Assembly (NCBI RefSeq): GCF_020510525.1
Contig: NZ_CP075188.1
Span: 2,480,001 to 2,544,000 of the forward strand
DNA length: 64,000 bases
Reading direction: 5' to 3'
Source: Quatrionicoccus australiensis
GTDB taxonomy: Bacteria; Pseudomonadota; Gammaproteobacteria; Burkholderiales; Rhodocyclaceae
This document shows positions 43,993-51,087 of this stretch, one piece after another. Below the pieces are notes generated by a model. The model had not been told where the DNA came from. It saw only the letters and a list, made by a program, of their open reading frames with translations, and ran no database searches. The translations under genes were made by a program, and so were the position numbers. Each line of letters opens with the position of its first letter. The first letter of the stretch is position 1.

Positions 43993-44132
43993 GGGGTTTT
44001 TGCCGTTTTCGACCGGTCGACCGATGGAAATGGCCGGTTTTGCCATGTCGTTCCGGCGATTCGGATTTCGCGATGGTTCGCCCTTGCGGGGCGTCTCGCT
44101 TGCGGACGTTGCGGCTCTTGTTTCGCGTGATG

Positions 44133-44666
44133 GTTCCGCCTTGCGGGCGGGCGTACTTTCTTTTGCTTCGCCAAAAGAAAGTAGCCAAAGAAAAGGCGAC
44201 CCCAGGGTCGGCGCCGGCTTCGCCGGTCCCTTGCGCTACTCGAAACCGGCGGGGGCTGCGGAACTCGGGGCTACGCCCCTCAGACAGTCCTCGCCCTCTT
44301 TCCGCCGTTTTCTGCGTTGCTCAGCGCCTCTCATGGGGCCCCCAAAAACGTCACGAAACGACGGCTCTGCCCAGGAACAGAAAATGCCGCTTTTTAGCGG
44401 TCGACCGCTAAAAACGACCAAAAACCATCTCCACCGGTTCGGCGGCGACGCCTTTCGGATCCCCCTGGGAGGCGCTGAGCAACGCAGGCTGGCCGGGGGT
44501 TTCGGCTTGCGTCTGTCCGAGCCGCAGGCGAGTTTAGCAAGCCGCCCGGACAGCCGAGTAGCGCAAGGGACCGGGCAACGCCCGGCGCCGACCCGGGGGT
44601 CGCCTTTTCTTTGGCTACTTTCTTTTGGCGAAGCAAAAGAAAGTACGCCCGCCCGCAAGGCGGAAC
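44133..44666. repeat. Long imperfect palindromic repeat element, copy 2
   Basis: About 534 bp between urtD and urtE. The outer 110 bp at each end (44133-44242 and 44555-44666) are near-perfect inverted repeats starting GTTCCGCCTTGCGGGCGGGC and themselves containing the hairpin CTTTTGCTTCGCCAAAAG. Pairing continues inward imperfectly (e.g. CTGCGTTGCTCAGCGCCTC on both sides) to the centre TTTTTAGCGGTCGACCGCTAAAAA at about 44391-44414. Copy 1 is at 1921-2457. A partial further end (GATGGTTCGCCCTTGCGGGGCGTCT) lies just outside at about 44072. The rest of the 764-bp gap shows nothing else. Confidence 0.88.
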
Positions 44667-44756
44667 CCCAACGTAAAACGAGCACAAACCCCACCGTAGC
44701 CGAGACTACAAGCAAAAAACCACGCGAACAAAATACCTGAGCCGGAGAACCCCACC

Positions 44757-45449
44757 ATGCTGAAAATCGACACCCTAAACCAAGCCTATGGCGGCAGCCA
44801 CATCCTCCGTGGCCTCTCCTTCGAGGTCAAAACCGGCGAAGTCACCACCCTCCTCGGCCGCAATGGCGTCGGCAAGACGACGCTGCTCAAATCGCTAATG
44901 GGCCTGGTCAAGACCAAATCCGGCAGCATCACTTTCGACGGCAAGGACATCACGAACCTGCCACCGCACGAGCGCGTCAAGGCCGGCATCGGCTACGTGC
45001 CGCAGGGCCGCGAGATCTTCCCGCGCCTGACCGTCGAGGAAAACCTGCTCATGGGCCTCGCCACCAAGCCGGGCGGCACGAAGATTCCCGAGCGCATTTT
45101 CGAGATGTTCCCGGTTCTCAAGCAGATGATGCACCGCCGCGGCGGCGACCTTTCCGGCGGCCAGCAGCAACAGCTCGCCATCGGCCGCGCCCTGGCCATG
45201 GGTCCGAAACTGCTCATCCTCGACGAACCGACCGAAGGCATCCAGCCGTCGATCATCAAGGACATCGAACGCGCCATCCGCATGCTCGCCGCCACCGGCG
45301 AAATGGCGATTCTGCTGGTCGAGCAGTATTACGATTTTGCCGAAGCCCTGGCCGACCAGTACCTGCTGATGGAACGCGGCGAATTCATCATGCGCGGCCG
45401 CGGTGAAACCATGCCGCAGGACGGCGTGCGCCAGGCTTTGGCGGTCTAA
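44757..45449 (+). CDS. urtE: Urea ABC transporter ATP-binding protein UrtE
   Basis: 230 residues. Walker A LLGRNGVGKTTLLKSLMG, signature DLSGGQQQQLAIGRAL and Walker B LLILDEPTEGIQPS; LivF-like. A GGAG ribosome site precedes the ATG. The palindromic repeat upstream would form a very long RNA hairpin in any transcript reaching from urtD, so expression of urtE relative to urtD is uncertain. Confidence 0.95.
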   Translation: MLKIDTLNQAYGGSHILRGLSFEVKTGEVTTLLGRNGVGKTTLLKSLMGLVKTKSGSITFDGKDITNLPPHERVKAGIGYVPQGREIFPRLTVEENLLMGLATKPGGTKIPERIFEMFPVLKQMMHRRGGDLSGGQQQQLAIGRALAMGPKLLILDEPTEGIQPSIIKDIERAIRMLAATGEMAILLVEQYYDFAEALADQYLLMERGEFIMRGRGETMPQDGVRQALAV

Positions 45450-45479
45450 GTCGGGAGAGTGGCCGCTATCGACCCAGCA

Positions 45480-48400
45480 CTATTTCGGCCAACTGACGTC
45501 CAGCACCCGAACAAAAACCCGCCGGCGCTCTTCAGGATCAAGTTGCGCTTCGAGGCGGGCCTGCAACTCGCCCGGCGAGCTTGGCTTTTTCCCGCCATCC
45601 CTGGCTGGCGGGAAATCACTCTTGCCAAACCAGAGCACAAGATAAATACCGTAACCCGAGGTTTTTGGCGAAGTGGTGTATTGGCTCATCAATTGGCTAC
45701 GCAATGCGCTCCATAACGAGCGGTTATCGTCACGCTTGATTTCGATGGGCACTTCAAAGTCATTGCGATACGACAAGCGGATGTCTGCACGCTTGTCGTT
45801 GGCGTAATCGCCTTCGGGTTGGCAATCGACGCCGAATGTTGCGGAAGAAGCGCGTAGCCTCCTCAGCAAAACATCGCGACAATAATTTTCCTCCCGCTTG
45901 CCGCTCGGCTTCTTGTTTTCAACATTCCAGAAGTCCCGAAAACCATCATCGTTGTCGTTGCGAATCCCAAGCGCAATTTGCTCCAGATAGTCGACCGTCA
46001 GGGCCGCCAAATCAGCGGAATTGACCGGTTCACGATTGGCCAGAATCCGCGCCACGCTTGCCAGTTCGGGGAAACGATAAAGCAACTCGCGCCGCTTCAA
46101 CTTCAACTGGTGCAGTGCATCGAGCAGTGCATGTTTCAATTTACTCAATGACTGCAAAGCAAGCAGCCGCTCGATTTCCCGCTCGGCTTCATCGGTTGCC
46201 AGTGCGCCGAGACGGGTCACCATGGCCAGAATATTTTCGCCACGTTGCATGGTGCTACTGACCACTCCCGAGCGGCGTTCAAAATCGGCATGTGGACTGA
46301 GCAGTTCGATCAGTTTGCCGATGCTCACTGGCGAGAGCGGATAGTCATTGCTGATACCCGCAAAACGCTCGCTGAGAAAGACACACAGATGATTGGCCCT
46401 TAGCCAGTTCTTACCGATATACCGCCAGAGCGCCGATTCGTATTTCGGGGGATCAAGCAGCATGGCCGCCGTCAGCCAGTAAACCCGCTGCGCAACATCC
46501 ATGCCTTTGACGGCCAGCTTATGGTCGACCAGTACCAGTAGCTGAACAGGGGTATAGCGTACAGCCGCTTTCAGCAGATATTCGAGATGCGACAACTGGG
46601 TCGATTTGGCACGAACGGGAAAGCCGGCCAACAAGGGCGGCCCGGCCAATTCTGCGACGCCACGGTAGATTGGATCGTGCGCCAGTGGATAGATGCCGTA
46701 GATGAAATCCTGGCGGGCTTTCAGGGTGGCGCCGGCATAAACGACCAGCACTTCGGCCACCAATTCGGGACACGTCTGTACCAGGTGGGTAAACCATGCC
46801 GGCGTATTGTCTGCGCCATAAGTCAGGCGAAAGGCCAGCATGCGACGCAGGCAGTCGTCGCCGAGCGTATCGACGAGAGAAACACCTTGCTGCCAGCGCA
46901 ACTCCATGCCGATCAGGCAGGGTTTACGGATGTAGTGTTCTCGCTGTTTGATACCGAGGTCGACGATTTCGGCAACACTGGGCAAATCATTGCGAAGGGG
47001 ACTCGCCACGAAACCAGACTCGGCTGCCTCCAGCGCTTCCAAGCCGTTATCACAATAACTGTCGAAGCGTTCCTGGTGCGTTTTTCCATGGGTATCGTAG
47101 TAGTGATCCATCCAGACCCCTGCCAACTCATACAGGATACCGGGCGCGGCACTGCCATCCTGAATCGCCGACAAGTACTTGGACAAATCAATAGCGCGTT
47201 TTCGTTTTTTTTCTGCATGTTCAAGCTTGCGAACTCTGGCTTTGGCTGAGCTATCCCGCTGCCACTCCTGTATTTCGCAAGTCAGCATTCGCTCCAGCCA
47301 GTCCTTTTTCTGCGGATTAGCTTCAGCCCATGCTTCGAGCTTTTCCAGCGACAGACCAACATGACCACGCTCAAACATCAGTGCTTGTACGGCCTCGATG
47401 GCGTGAATCTCGGCAAGCTCGACATTTGGCTCCCGGGATGCCAATTCCAGATGCCAAAGTCCGAAATCATCCGGCACGACAGCGCCATGCAAACGATGCT
47501 CCTGTGCAAAAATGCAAGAACGCACCTGATCTTTCGCCGCACAATGTTTGTAGCAAAGAGCAAGCACTGCCTTGTAACGTTCGGGACGTTTTCCCAACCA
47601 ATCGGCAATGACAGCCTGATGCTCTTTTTCCCTGTGGCTCTCGCCATACTTGTCAGCACCGATTCCTAGCCAGGCAAACAACCGTTCATCATCGATCTCG
47701 TCGCCAAATATTTCCAGGCCCCGGCAGAGCAAGGCACCCTGCATTTTTCGGCAATAGAAGCTGAAGTCGTATTTATCGGAGACAACCAGATCTGTCCTAG
47801 TAGCAAGCTGATCCAGCAAAACAAGCAAATGCAAGTCTGGAGCGATGCTAGCTAATTTATATCCCCAGAAGCTTGCAAGCCCACCGATGTAGTCACGCTT
47901 CTTGGGCGCGTGCAGATAACGAAACAGCACATCGGGTGCGATATAGTCAGGATACAGATGACTGAGCAACTCGCCAGCCAGATCGTCATCAGAATCCGTC
48001 AGCCTATGCTCGTTGATCGAGTCCAGCACGGCCAGCGCCTCTGCGCTTGCCGGCGACAATTTCAACCAGACTCTCAGCGCATGGCTTCTGATTCCACTCC
48101 AGCGGCTGTCATCAAGGACAACAGCCTTGAGGGTTGCCGCCAATTCGGGAATGGGCTCACCTTCGCCAAGGATGTCCAACACGCAATAGGCGAAGTACTG
48201 ACTTGCATCGTCACGCTGCTCCGACAGCAGGGCATTGGTAAATTCAGGGACCAGCTCCGGCTCGGCAAGCGCACCAAAGGAGGCCATGGAAGGAACTTCT
48301 CGGCGCGAGATGAAATGGTGTTTTGTCTCTTCTTGCAGGCCGGCAAGCAACTTGCGCTTGTCGGCCAATGACATGGGTTTGACGTCGCCATAAACCACCA

Positions 48401-49508
48401 CGGTCAGAGGATCGGCCTCGATCAGGCGTTGGCGGGCAGTCTGGCAATGCAGCGCCAACCAGCCGTAGAGGCCACGCAAGCCGGCAACCGTCCGTTCGTC
48501 GCGCCCGACGAAAAGATTGATGACCCGCCGCAGCGGTAGACCGCTTTGATCGATTTGTTTTGCCAGCCATTGCGCCGCCAGGTATTCGGCAACGCTTCGA
48601 TGACTGGGTTGCACCCGCTCTTCGGCGTCGGCAGAACGAAACAGTTTTCGCCTCACGGCCAGGCGCGCCACTGATAAATCGGGCGGGGAAAAATCGTCAA
48701 TCAGCGGGAAACCTGAGTCGGCGCGCTCGATATCGAGCGCCAGGCCGGCCTTGTCGGAGAGCAGCAGCACGGCACAGAGTTGGCCGGCAGCTTCCAGAAC
48801 GCGCTCGACAGAAATCGCCTGGCCGCGCAGGCAATCCCGATGTGGCTTGGCATCCTCTTCCGCCAATTTCCGACAGGCCAGCCTGAAGGTTTCCTCACGG
48901 GTAATCGGCCACTGCCCGTCACGTATGGCCTCTGCCAGCAGGCGTAGCGTCTGGGGATTGTTCAACAAACCGTTGATGCCACGATCACTTGCCTTGTTCA
49001 CAAAATCTTCGGGATCGGCAATGTCGTGGTTGAGCTTCAGAATCTCCTGAATTTCCTCCGGGCTCAGGGGCTGAAGAACAAAGACCCCGAGGCGACCATC
49101 CGGCGACACATCGCTCACCGCCTGACTGTCCGTTGAACCGAACCAATCGGCCGCACGACAGGCGATACGAAATTTGGGGTTGCCGAGCTTTCTCAGATGA
49201 CCCCGGATTTTCAACAAGATGCTGCTGTCGCCGCCACTGGCGCGCGTCTCATCCAGACCATCGAGAAACAAGGTTTTCCCTTGCCAAGCCGGGTCGGGAT
49301 CATCGCTTAAAAATTTGGCGATGGAGATATAGAGACCTTCTGTCTCTGAGGCTTCCATCTTGAATACTTCGGTCTTCCCTGCACCCGGCTCACCCAGTAA
49401 AACCCATGCTCCTTGGTCGCGAAGCTCGGGCAAGAGGCAAATCGGATTTTCAGCCAGCCTGGCTGCATCGTCAGAGATTCGGGAAACATGACGCGGGATG
49501 AGCAACAT
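45480..49508 (-). CDS. NACHT-like STAND NTPase with C-terminal PD-(D/E)XK nuclease domain
   Basis: 1342 residues from MLLIPRHVSRISDDAARLAE. Walker A LLGEPGAGKTEVF (residues 37-49), NACHT-type Walker B LFLDGLDE (80-87) and an arginine motif FRIACRAADW (about 113-122) sit at the very N-terminus. Residues about 300-1190 are mostly helical and look like an alpha-solenoid sensor. The C-terminal 150 residues have Asp1242 (KRADIRLSY) and Glu1256-X-Lys1258 (VPIEIKRDD), the spacing of a PD-(D/E)XK nuclease, followed by SQYTTSPKTSGYGIYLVLWF. I chose the ATG at 49508, 5 bp after the preceding gene with GGAG upstream; a TTG at 49526 is possible. Less GC-rich than its neighbours. Role in phage or plasmid defence is inferred from architecture. 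Confidence 0.8.
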   Translation of the reverse strand: MLLIPRHVSRISDDAARLAENPICLLPELRDQGAWVLLGEPGAGKTEVFKMEASETEGLYISIAKFLSDDPDPAWQGKTLFLDGLDETRASGGDSSILLKIRGHLRKLGNPKFRIACRAADWFGSTDSQAVSDVSPDGRLGVFVLQPLSPEEIQEILKLNHDIADPEDFVNKASDRGINGLLNNPQTLRLLAEAIRDGQWPITREETFRLACRKLAEEDAKPHRDCLRGQAISVERVLEAAGQLCAVLLLSDKAGLALDIERADSGFPLIDDFSPPDLSVARLAVRRKLFRSADAEERVQPSHRSVAEYLAAQWLAKQIDQSGLPLRRVINLFVGRDERTVAGLRGLYGWLALHCQTARQRLIEADPLTVVVYGDVKPMSLADKRKLLAGLQEETKHHFISRREVPSMASFGALAEPELVPEFTNALLSEQRDDASQYFAYCVLDILGEGEPIPELAATLKAVVLDDSRWSGIRSHALRVWLKLSPASAEALAVLDSINEHRLTDSDDDLAGELLSHLYPDYIAPDVLFRYLHAPKKRDYIGGLASFWGYKLASIAPDLHLLVLLDQLATRTDLVVSDKYDFSFYCRKMQGALLCRGLEIFGDEIDDERLFAWLGIGADKYGESHREKEHQAVIADWLGKRPERYKAVLALCYKHCAAKDQVRSCIFAQEHRLHGAVVPDDFGLWHLELASREPNVELAEIHAIEAVQALMFERGHVGLSLEKLEAWAEANPQKKDWLERMLTCEIQEWQRDSSAKARVRKLEHAEKKRKRAIDLSKYLSAIQDGSAAPGILYELAGVWMDHYYDTHGKTHQERFDSYCDNGLEALEAAESGFVASPLRNDLPSVAEIVDLGIKQREHYIRKPCLIGMELRWQQGVSLVDTLGDDCLRRMLAFRLTYGADNTPAWFTHLVQTCPELVAEVLVVYAGATLKARQDFIYGIYPLAHDPIYRGVAELAGPPLLAGFPVRAKSTQLSHLEYLLKAAVRYTPVQLLVLVDHKLAVKGMDVAQRVYWLTAAMLLDPPKYESALWRYIGKNWLRANHLCVFLSERFAGISNDYPLSPVSIGKLIELLSPHADFERRSGVVSSTMQRGENILAMVTRLGALATDEAEREIERLLALQSLSKLKHALLDALHQLKLKRRELLYRFPELASVARILANREPVNSADLAALTVDYLEQIALGIRNDNDDGFRDFWNVENKKPSGKREENYCRDVLLRRLRASSATFGVDCQPEGDYANDKRADIRLSYRNDFEVPIEIKRDDNRSLWSALRSQLMSQYTTSPKTSGYGIYLVLWFGKSDFPPARDGGKKPSSPGELQARLEAQLDPEERRRVFVRVLDVSWPK

Positions 49509-49513
49509 TCTTC

Positions 49514-50776
49514 TTACTCCAGCCAATCATCGGCGGGATGAGACAGGAATTCGGCCAAGGGAACACCGCCTTCACCAACGATCAAGCTGCGAGCATCCTT
49601 GAACTTCCCGGTAAAAACCTCCAGTCCCTTGGGGGCTGCATATTTCGCACCGCTTTTGACTTCGATGGCAAGGATCTTTCTACCGTTGGTGAGGACGAAA
49701 TCGACTTCGAGCGGGCTTTCCCGCCAGTACTGGATTTCGCAATCTTCCGAAGCGGTATTGATCAAATGTGCGCCGACGGTACTTTCGACCATACGCCCCC
49801 AGTAGCTCCGATCTGCGGTTGCTTCGGCAAAGGAATATCCGGCCAATGCCGAAATAAGGGCGGTGTTGTGGGCGTTCAGCTTCGGACTGGAGGCCCGTTT
49901 GCGGAATGCCTGCATGGCAAACTTTGATAAGCCGCTTAGCAAGCCGGCCATGGAGAGCAGCTCAAGATAGTGAGCCAGCGTCGTCGTATTTCCGGCATCG
50001 GCCAATTGGCCACGCAATTTGTCGTAGGCAATGATTTGGCCGGAATAGGCACCACATCCCAACTCGAACAGCGCTTTCAGCAAGGCAGGCTTGTCGACCC
50101 GCGTCATTTGCAGAATGTCTTTTTCGATATTCGGCTGAATCAGGGCCGTACGAACATAATGTCGCCAGCGTGTTTCCTCCCTGATCAGGCTCGCGCTACC
50201 GGGATAGCCACCAAAGTAGATGTACTCGTCCAGAGAAAAATCGAACGCAGCCTGCATCTCTCCGTAAGACCAGTGCGCCATGCGAATGGGCTCGTAGCGG
50301 CCCGCCAGACTTTCGGTAAGGCCCTTCTGCATCAACCAGGGTGACGAACCGAGCAAGACGATGTGGAGCGGCAGATTCTCGGCGCGATCAGCATCCCACA
50401 GGCCTTTGACAATTTCGGACCAACGGGGAATTTTCTGAATTTCGTCGATAGCCAGGACGTAGCGTTCGCCCTCAGAGAGATTTCTTGCGTTTGCCCGCGC
50501 CTGATTCCATTGCCGCACGAGCCATTCGGCGGTTGGTGGCGCCCCAGCTACGCTCTGTGCCACGGAGAAACTACTTGTATCGTTGAAAGGATCAAGTGCT
50601 TCCGGACCCGCTTGATCGACAGCGACGAAACTGGATCGCTCCCGATACTCAGACAAGGCCTGCCGGACCATTGTGGTTTTGCCAACTTGGCGAGGGCCGG
50701 CGACAACGATCATGAAGCGCGGCTGCTCACTGAGCCGGCTACGCAGGGTATTGATTTGACTACGTTCAAATAACAT
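49514..50776 (-). CDS. AAA ATPase of the AAA_14/DUF4143 family
   Basis: 420 residues. Walker A VVAGPRQVGKTTMV (about 24-37), Walker B YVLAIDEIQKIPRW (about 105-118), and sensor-type LLGSSPWLMQKGL. The C-terminal DUF4143 region has VDFVLTNGRKILAIEVKSG, an Asp...Glu-X-Lys pattern like a PD-(D/E)XK fold. Family members are widespread and poorly understood. It lies 5 bp upstream of the NACHT-nuclease gene on the same strand, so the two are an operon. A perfect 16-bp palindrome lies just before its start codon. Confidence 0.88.
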   Translation of the reverse strand: MLFERSQINTLRSRLSEQPRFMIVVAGPRQVGKTTMVRQALSEYRERSSFVAVDQAGPEALDPFNDTSSFSVAQSVAGAPPTAEWLVRQWNQARANARNLSEGERYVLAIDEIQKIPRWSEIVKGLWDADRAENLPLHIVLLGSSPWLMQKGLTESLAGRYEPIRMAHWSYGEMQAAFDFSLDEYIYFGGYPGSASLIREETRWRHYVRTALIQPNIEKDILQMTRVDKPALLKALFELGCGAYSGQIIAYDKLRGQLADAGNTTTLAHYLELLSMAGLLSGLSKFAMQAFRKRASSPKLNAHNTALISALAGYSFAEATADRSYWGRMVESTVGAHLINTASEDCEIQYWRESPLEVDFVLTNGRKILAIEVKSGAKYAAPKGLEVFTGKFKDARSLIVGEGGVPLAEFLSHPADDWLE

Positions 50777-50787
50777 TTTTACGATAC

Positions 50788-50803
50788 TGAGTAAATTTAC
50801 TCA
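50788..50803. promoter_or_regulatory. Perfect 16-bp palindrome, likely operator of the NTPase-nuclease operon
   Basis: TGAGTAAATTTACTCA, fully self-complementary, 11 bp before the ATG of the DUF4143 gene. Its size and place suit a dimeric repressor site. No repressor gene is next to it. Confidence 0.5.
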
Positions 50804-51004
50804 CAACATTAATACTTAACATTCTTGAACGCAATGAACTTTCTGGCGTTCAAGGCATTTCCAGTCAGTTCGAAAAAAAATCAAACTCCCAACGGTCGAC
50901 ACAAAACCAGGCATCGAATTGGGGCGCATACAGCTTTCAGTGCGCAAAAGCGGTGCGCAAAAAGAGCATGTCGAGTTAGCCGAAACCCCGATCCGGCCTG
51001 GATT

Positions 51005-51022
51005 GCTGACTTTTCGGTCAGC
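51005..51022. promoter_or_regulatory. Inverted repeat upstream of the LysR gene
   Basis: GCTGAC-TTTTCG-GTCAGC, about 66 bp before the LysR ATG; a further TCAGC lies at 51051. It could be the autoregulatory LysR binding site or a hairpin in the leader. Confidence 0.35.
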
Positions 51023-51087
51023 AGACGACGAGGCGCGTTTATTGCTTTAGTCAGCTATCAACGCCGAATCGTCAGAGGGGAAAAATA

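Follow-up and report, generated by a model that had tools for sequence, protein, structure and literature searches.

A DUF4143 ATPase gene and an operator-like palindrome precede an EruA-family NACHT gene in a candidate two-gene phage defence module

The 64-kb stretch of Quatrionicoccus australiensis DNA analysed here (contig NZ_CP075188.1; hereafter the window) carries two adjacent minus-strand genes, the first encoding an ATPase with a DUF4143 region and the second a large NACHT-type protein of the EruA family (Table 1). Both reading frames, and the 5-bp gap from the ATPase stop codon to the ATG of EruA, agree with an initial annotation of this DNA; an alternative TTG start lies 18 bp upstream of the ATG, at 49526, and its use would make the genes overlap. 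The neighbouring genes, read from the sequence by eye, are presumably urtD, urtE, a LysR gene and urate genes. The pair had also been described as less GC-rich than its surroundings, and GC per kilobase is indeed 0.52–0.60 at 45–51 kb, compared with 0.61–0.66 in the five kilobases on each side. Low GC is not confined to the pair, as kilobases 8–10 and 39–40 of the window, for example, are equally low. No tRNA was found in the 64 kb.

Table 1. Positions of the gene pair, its predicted domains and its upstream site within the window
Feature	Position	Strand	Basis
Upstream gene of the pair: ATPase of 420 aa (AAA_14, DUF4143; PDC-S01 subfamily PDLC04791)	49514..50776	-	Open reading frame (ORF), Pfam, PADLOC
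AAA_14 P-loop domain, ATPase residues 22-174	50255..50713	-	Pfam match; structure model
DUF4143 region, ATPase residues 218-376: winged-helix-like part and nuclease-like E331, D359, E372, K374	49649..50125	-	Pfam match; conservation; model
EruA-family NACHT protein with nuclease-like C-terminal domain, 1342 aa from ATG	45480..49508	-	NCBIfam NF058535
EruA Walker A GEPGAGKT, residues 39-46	49371..49394	-	Sequence; conservation
EruA Walker B LFLDGLDE, residues 80-87	49248..49271	-	Sequence; conservation
Predicted EruA PD-(D/E)XK domain, residues 1189-1342: E1207, D1242, E1256, K1258, Q1272	45483..45944	-	Model; structure comparison; conservation
Palindromic operator-like site, ~34 bp, two bases before ATPase start codon	50779..50812	.	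Sequence comparison
Palindrome core TGAGTAAATTTACTCA	50788-50803	.	Exact match at no other place in the genome
Predicted -10 element TAATGT, inside upstream arm of palindrome	50806..50811	-	Alignment of 51 loci
Approximate insertion footprint between urtE and LysR gene	45446..51031	.	Comparison with four same-genus empty sites

The large protein matches NCBIfam NF058535 ('NACHT domain-containing antiphage protein EruA') with 1032.8 bits over residues 28–1339, above the curated cut-off of 1000, and its Walker motifs and nuclease residues follow one another as they do in that family. It is also related to HyoA (NCBIfam NF058534) over residues 129–1298, with 195 bits, far under the cut-off of 1200. 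No match was found in Pfam (including NACHT), PADLOC (E up to 1) or PHROGs; PF05729 of Pfam is matched by two of 34 aligned EruA members (alignment A2), 14 of which, the window's protein included, reach the EruA cut-off score. The N-terminal Walker motifs and the C-terminal D1242, E1256 and K1258, already pointed out in the initial annotation, are almost invariant across 91 aligned EruA proteins including that of the window, and relatives keep their frames at 19–59% identity. The name EruA is also borne by an unrelated E. coli regulator, and no source paper for the antiphage protein was found in the literature searched.

In a structure model of EruA residues 709–1342, residues 709–1190 are helical, and it is for these alone that the model bears out the roughly 900 helical residues proposed earlier. 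The C-terminal domain has PD-(D/E)XK topology in this model, with the catalytic residues present. Foldseek returned no match at E up to 0.001 for the modelled stretch, and a second look at its matches gave Can2 and McrC as the closest solved nuclease folds; these are other proteins with other activation and no sequence match to EruA. A PDB sequence search with the proteins of the pair yielded nothing relevant. Fold and catalytic residues support placement of the EruA C-terminus in the PD-(D/E)XK superfamily, in keeping with the nuclease domain first suggested there, and a nuclease role is predicted. Avs and bNACHT systems likewise rely on STAND/NACHT P-loop proteins with an extensive helical portion, and the PADLOC library, none of whose families EruA matches, holds Avs models. 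The predicted effector domain of the window's protein is C-terminal, whereas the account of Avs and bNACHT given in PMC13092281 places the effector typically at the N-terminus.

The ATPase matches Pfam AAA_14 (5.8e-22) and DUF4143 (3.4e-23) and, over residues 1–419, subfamily PDLC04791 of the PADLOC candidate PDC-S01 (7.3e-169, 559.6 bits); PHROGs gave no match. Its model comprises an archaeal-type ATPase, a winged helix and a nuclease-like end. Residues 1–313 align with the ATPase and following domain of archaeal PABY2304 and SSO1545 and of Cdc6/Orc1, from which the window's protein differs by its additional DUF4143 end. Conservation of D359, E372 and K374 agrees with the nuclease-like ending read from the sequence at first, and relatives keep their frames at 41–79% identity. 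In the part of PMC12988326 that treats it, PDC-S01 is an ATPase fused to a PD-(D/E)XK member, and the window's ATPase similarly has a PD-(D/E)XK-like end; PDC-S01 is grouped there with single-gene candidates and reported to rank fourth in frequency among prokaryotic defences, most such candidate defences still awaiting validation. Here, by contrast, the ATPase gene opens a module of two genes, the other being EruA. The profile and structure searches proposed with the initial annotation thus returned EruA, PDC-S01 and AAA_14/DUF4143 matches and a PD-(D/E)XK-like model, and the arrangement, which had been called unrecognised, can no longer be so described as a whole, since NCBIfam names the large protein antiphage EruA and PADLOC has the ATPase as PDC-S01.

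Comparison within the genus marks the pair as a GC-poor insertion of patchy occurrence. The LysR neighbour was found at more than 600 bits in eight others among 60 genomes of the genus (the 60 including the window's own). In four genomes (G016, G008, G461 and G465) the site is empty, the urtE and LysR alignments lying ~140–180 bases apart vs ~5.6 kb in the window; a full urtE alignment beside LysR was not found in G460 or G006. No EruA homologue was detected in 35 other same-genus genomes beyond short P-loop matches of 18–21 bits, and no target duplication was identified at the insertion. The urtE-LysR interval holds one other gene in G031 and 12.4 kb of other genes in G459; because such genes, unrelated to the pair, sit there in two same-genus genomes (L220:1283-13718, L216:2529-4064), the interval may be a recurrent integration spot. 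The position of the pair between apparent urea and urate genes in this genome, where its phage role is a prediction, might suggest that it serves housekeeping or plasmid maintenance and has nothing to do with phage. A function of that kind is very improbable in view of the antiphage label of the family in NCBIfam, the patchy insertion with empty sites and the spread over many phyla described below.

Across 398 genomes of the phylum, NF058535 matched 67 at E up to 0.001, ten of them, the window's own included, above the cut-off. The nine other above-cut-off loci (L083–L091) differ from the window in having no relative of its ATPase within the stretches fetched and no palindrome core. Searching the same genomes with PDLC04791 gave ten matches above 500 bits; four lie directly before an EruA gene (G000, G043, G107 and G314) and six lack a seen EruA, two of these being ~350 bases or less from a downstream contig end. 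Named genomes were also scanned with an alignment (A1) of ten EruA proteins, of which three, among them that of the window, belong to ATPase-bearing loci. Among the matches listed, a same-strand ATPase gene stands directly upstream of EruA in 61 of 79 loci, the contig ends too early in six, and the ATPase is absent in 12; as the sample is centred on the window's protein, these proportions are not representative of EruA at large. This survey, proposed as a check of the inferred two-gene system, points to a linked module: homologues are not always single genes, and the single-gene status of PDC-S01 does not hold here. One of the 61 pairs was called from the C-terminal part of an otherwise masked ATPase, and L122 has both genes in pieces. 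Two of the six short loci still carry the end of an upstream ATPase gene: in L166 it is this ATPase, in L176 another DUF4143 ATPase. The genes overlap by four bases in 32 of 59 pairs if EruA is taken to begin at the in-frame start codon closest to the ATPase stop, a choice that favours short gaps. Judged by record titles, paired loci span about 12 phyla, with Proteobacteria, Desulfobulbus, Pelodictyon, Chloroflexi, Dadabacteria, Acidobacteria, Binatia, Gemmatimonadetes, Bacteroidetes, Nitrospinota, Acidimicrobiia and Opitutales among the names.

A FastTree phylogeny of the 91 EruA proteins, rooted at the midpoint, places the paired loci in one clade (support 0.97) together with nine unpaired loci (L090, L118, L128, L130, L132, L140, L142, L150 and L156). 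Outside it are L153, a group that includes two named members of Magnetococcales type, and a group with core EruA. A tblastn search of 30 loci with 69 ATPase queries was negative in 28, some of which are shortened by contig ends; it picked up a remnant in L142 and, in the remaining locus, the partly masked ATPase copy. No fixed upstream partner was seen for sixteen ATPase-less EruA genes, eight of them from the core group (L083–L089, L098). At L176, which falls outside the paired clade, the contig end leaves only the last 165 residues of the ORF directly upstream (positions 3–497). This piece matches Pfam DUF4143 (9.2e-30) and a different PDC-S01 subfamily (PDLC04789, 6.6e-73); by this locus, the DUF4143 ATPase and EruA families may have joined more than once. 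ATPase and EruA distances correlate (r = 0.85 over 57 pairs; the highest of 1000 permutations gave 0.16), with species history uncontrolled. The ATPases without a seen EruA (L100–L105) nest inside the tree of paired ATPases, whose deeper branches are modestly supported. The correlated distances and the second DUF4143 subfamily before a distant EruA relative are both in favour of the ATPase being a working partner of EruA (a co-sensor, loader or second nuclease), in which case the palindrome at its start would be read by another protein or would serve basal promoter control only. The catalytic and nuclease-like residues of the ATPase, nearly invariant in 63 paired sequences and so beyond the need of a mere repressor, point the same way. 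We regard this possibility as doubtful in the light of the palindrome itself, to which we now turn.

In the window's own genome, the 16-base core of the palindrome occurs exactly at this site only, with one further place at two mismatches. Neither this palindrome nor the empty site figures in the initial annotation. GAGTAAATTTACTC, with up to two mismatches, was found before the ATPase start in 41 of 62 paired loci (two of the 62 upstream stretches being cut by contig ends) and in none of 20 shuffles of each. When 34-base stretches were scanned without reference to the core, 30 of 60 loci, where 0.3 would be expected, had one in which 13 or more of the 17 positions are symmetric; in a few loci the best symmetric stretch lies elsewhere. 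At outer positions 9–20 around the core (51 of 62 loci), 66.8% of cells pair, compared with 44.2% in column shuffles (0 of 1000) and 23.5–31.9% when the arms are slid, and 132 cells are changed on both sides vs 47.9 in shuffles; these shuffle nulls ignore the shared ancestry of the loci. Symmetry extends ~19–20 positions from the centre though the letters of the outer arms vary, and reaches a perfect 44 bp in L110 and L113. In an alignment of 51 loci, a predicted -10 element, TACNNT, falls within the left arm, with enrichment of a -35-like element at the appropriate spacing, and the ATPase start codon is often close behind the right arm. As predicted from these elements, the palindrome lies over the promoter and has the layout of an operator.

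The palindrome is tied to this ATPase subfamily. Pattern TTACNNTNNTGAGTAAWTTTACTCANNANNGTAA, derived from paired loci with G043 and G107 among them, was found with up to three mismatches in six of the 398 genomes, at one place each, and every one of the six places immediately precedes the gene of an ATPase from this subfamily. Contig ends cut two of these genes, one of which, in G241, was judged from its first 22 codons, which resemble those of G107. The same pattern read backward as a control gave no place in the 398 genomes, and the palindrome pattern had no exact match in IMG/VR. Upstream of 29 EruA loci without this ATPase (L128, L156, L091, L094, L096 and L099 among them), the nearest approach to the core has at least four mismatches; two Pseudomonas-type ATPase-less loci carry a different, GC-rich palindrome. 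Conversely, each of the six ATPases without a seen EruA has at least one exact GAGTAA/TTACTC half-site within 100 bases, mostly as direct repeats, whereas of 18 other DUF4143 ATPase genes three have one half-site and none has two. Within 120 bases upstream of those other DUF4143/PDC-S01 genes (L060–L079), repeats of differing sequence precede the start codon in 13 of 18 cases, seven direct (at least 15 of 16 positions; none of 270 null sequences reaches 14) and seven inverted (at least 13 positions; 1.5% of null), one locus having both kinds. These repeats hint at self-regulation across the whole DUF4143 ATPase family. That the half-site accompanies the ATPase where no EruA is seen, that the core was not found before the 29 EruA genes without this ATPase and that other DUF4143 loci have repeats of their own all weigh against the account in which the ATPase is a working partner of EruA and the palindrome is read by another protein or serves basal control.

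The joint variation of the palindrome arms also allows the ATPase to read their shape. It is unlikely, in our view, that the palindrome is a structural target, a hairpin or cruciform seen by the Holliday-resolvase-like end of the ATPase, through which the module would sense DNA topology or replication state. The outer arms do vary while staying symmetric, up to the perfect symmetry of L110 and L113, and the ATPase end weakly matches NCBIfam Hjc and YraN, far below cut-off; symmetric change equally fits a dimeric reader with drifting specificity, and a site that overlaps the -10 element and adjoins the start codon resembles ordinary operators. An RNA hairpin was rejected as the leading view of the palindrome because the excess of G-T over A-C mismatches (54 to 25) is already predicted by column make-up (70 to 46 in shuffles) and because the predicted -10 element in the left arm would leave that arm out of the transcript.

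The best explanation, in which we place middling confidence, is that the pair is a two-gene variant of EruA whose upstream DUF4143 ATPase would bind a palindrome overlapping the predicted promoter and repress the likely operon until infection, upon which the NACHT protein would assemble and probably cut DNA. It draws on the family match, the pairing, the insertion, the covarying palindrome and its tie to one ATPase subfamily, the intact catalytic residues and the predicted folds. From these comparisons, the pair is likely a real module for phage defence and is likely switched on and off through the palindrome at its start, the best reading of the ATPase being that of an operator-binding switch for a NACHT sensor-nuclease. 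Under such a scheme, the two genes would be co-transcribed, and the ATPase would bind the palindrome through its predicted winged-helix part, holding the operon down; infection would disturb this binding, and the NACHT protein would be made or freed. EruA might then sense through its helical-repeat region, oligomerise via its NACHT part and cut phage or host DNA with a C-terminal domain that would use E1207, D1242, E1256 and K1258.

The pair could also be compared with a type II toxin-antitoxin operon, the ATPase being an autoregulated antitoxin that neutralises the EruA nuclease. An upstream gene with a likely DNA-binding part, a short overlap and a palindrome over the predicted promoter, here a putative operator, resemble the type II architecture. 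In those systems the toxin always comes with its antitoxin, whereas the nuclease residues are retained in EruA genes that lack the ATPase, both within the paired clade and beyond it. An antitoxin of this kind is therefore not needed there and the ATPase is not an obligatory one, so that this comparison seems distinctly improbable as an account of the pair.

A broader and more tentative proposal, possible but less probable than the repressor scheme above, is that DUF4143/PDC-S01 ATPases act as DNA-binding switches that regulate themselves, the repeat at the start codon being read by the respective subfamily, and that one of them captured EruA in this lineage as a two-stage immune circuit, in which loss of operator binding during infection would arm the sensor with its C-terminal nuclease; the symmetric, freely varying arms may then mean that DNA shape (hairpin or cruciform) is read, not letters. 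What looks new is the linkage of ATPase and EruA together with the operator-like site, the parts being already named in databases. Among the matches listed from one open library, no paper connects DUF4143 ATPases, by title or start of abstract, with NACHT proteins or with a site of this kind. The operator-like site before one subfamily, with repeats before others, opens PDC-S01 ATPases to a direct biochemical test and would offer an initial way into how a common defence ATPase acts. Although catalogued as single-gene, the candidate is so regularly paired with a NACHT-nuclease that it forms part of a larger module across many phyla, and the NACHT protein can be compared between its solo and switch-linked forms.

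EruA relatives were found on 29 PLSDB plasmid records, 17 of them predicted to be conjugative, and close ATPase relatives, under a stricter limit, on four PLSDB records, none of which is among the 20 EruA records listed. Only one of 50,697 phage records contains EruA, in partial form. A search for defence genes nearby, also suggested with the initial annotation, compared 110 ORFs next to paired loci (the nearest on each side, of at least 100 aa where found, long ones cut to 450 aa) with 110 control ORFs drawn from stretches of other, differing genomes. The neighbours match 128 PADLOC families at 1e-10 and the controls 13, a weak hint only, since the counts are of families and not of matching genes, many models describe one protein and the control genomes differ; no family is matched by more than two of the 110 neighbours, methyltransferase models having two members each among the models listed.

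Between urtD and urtE, an inverted-repeat element at 43995-44682 has arms of 101 nt that are 93% complementary. It is absent from G016, where the urtD and urtE alignments are ~11 bp apart, and a 214-bp piece of it has 20 matches in the window's own genome, the element's own copies included.

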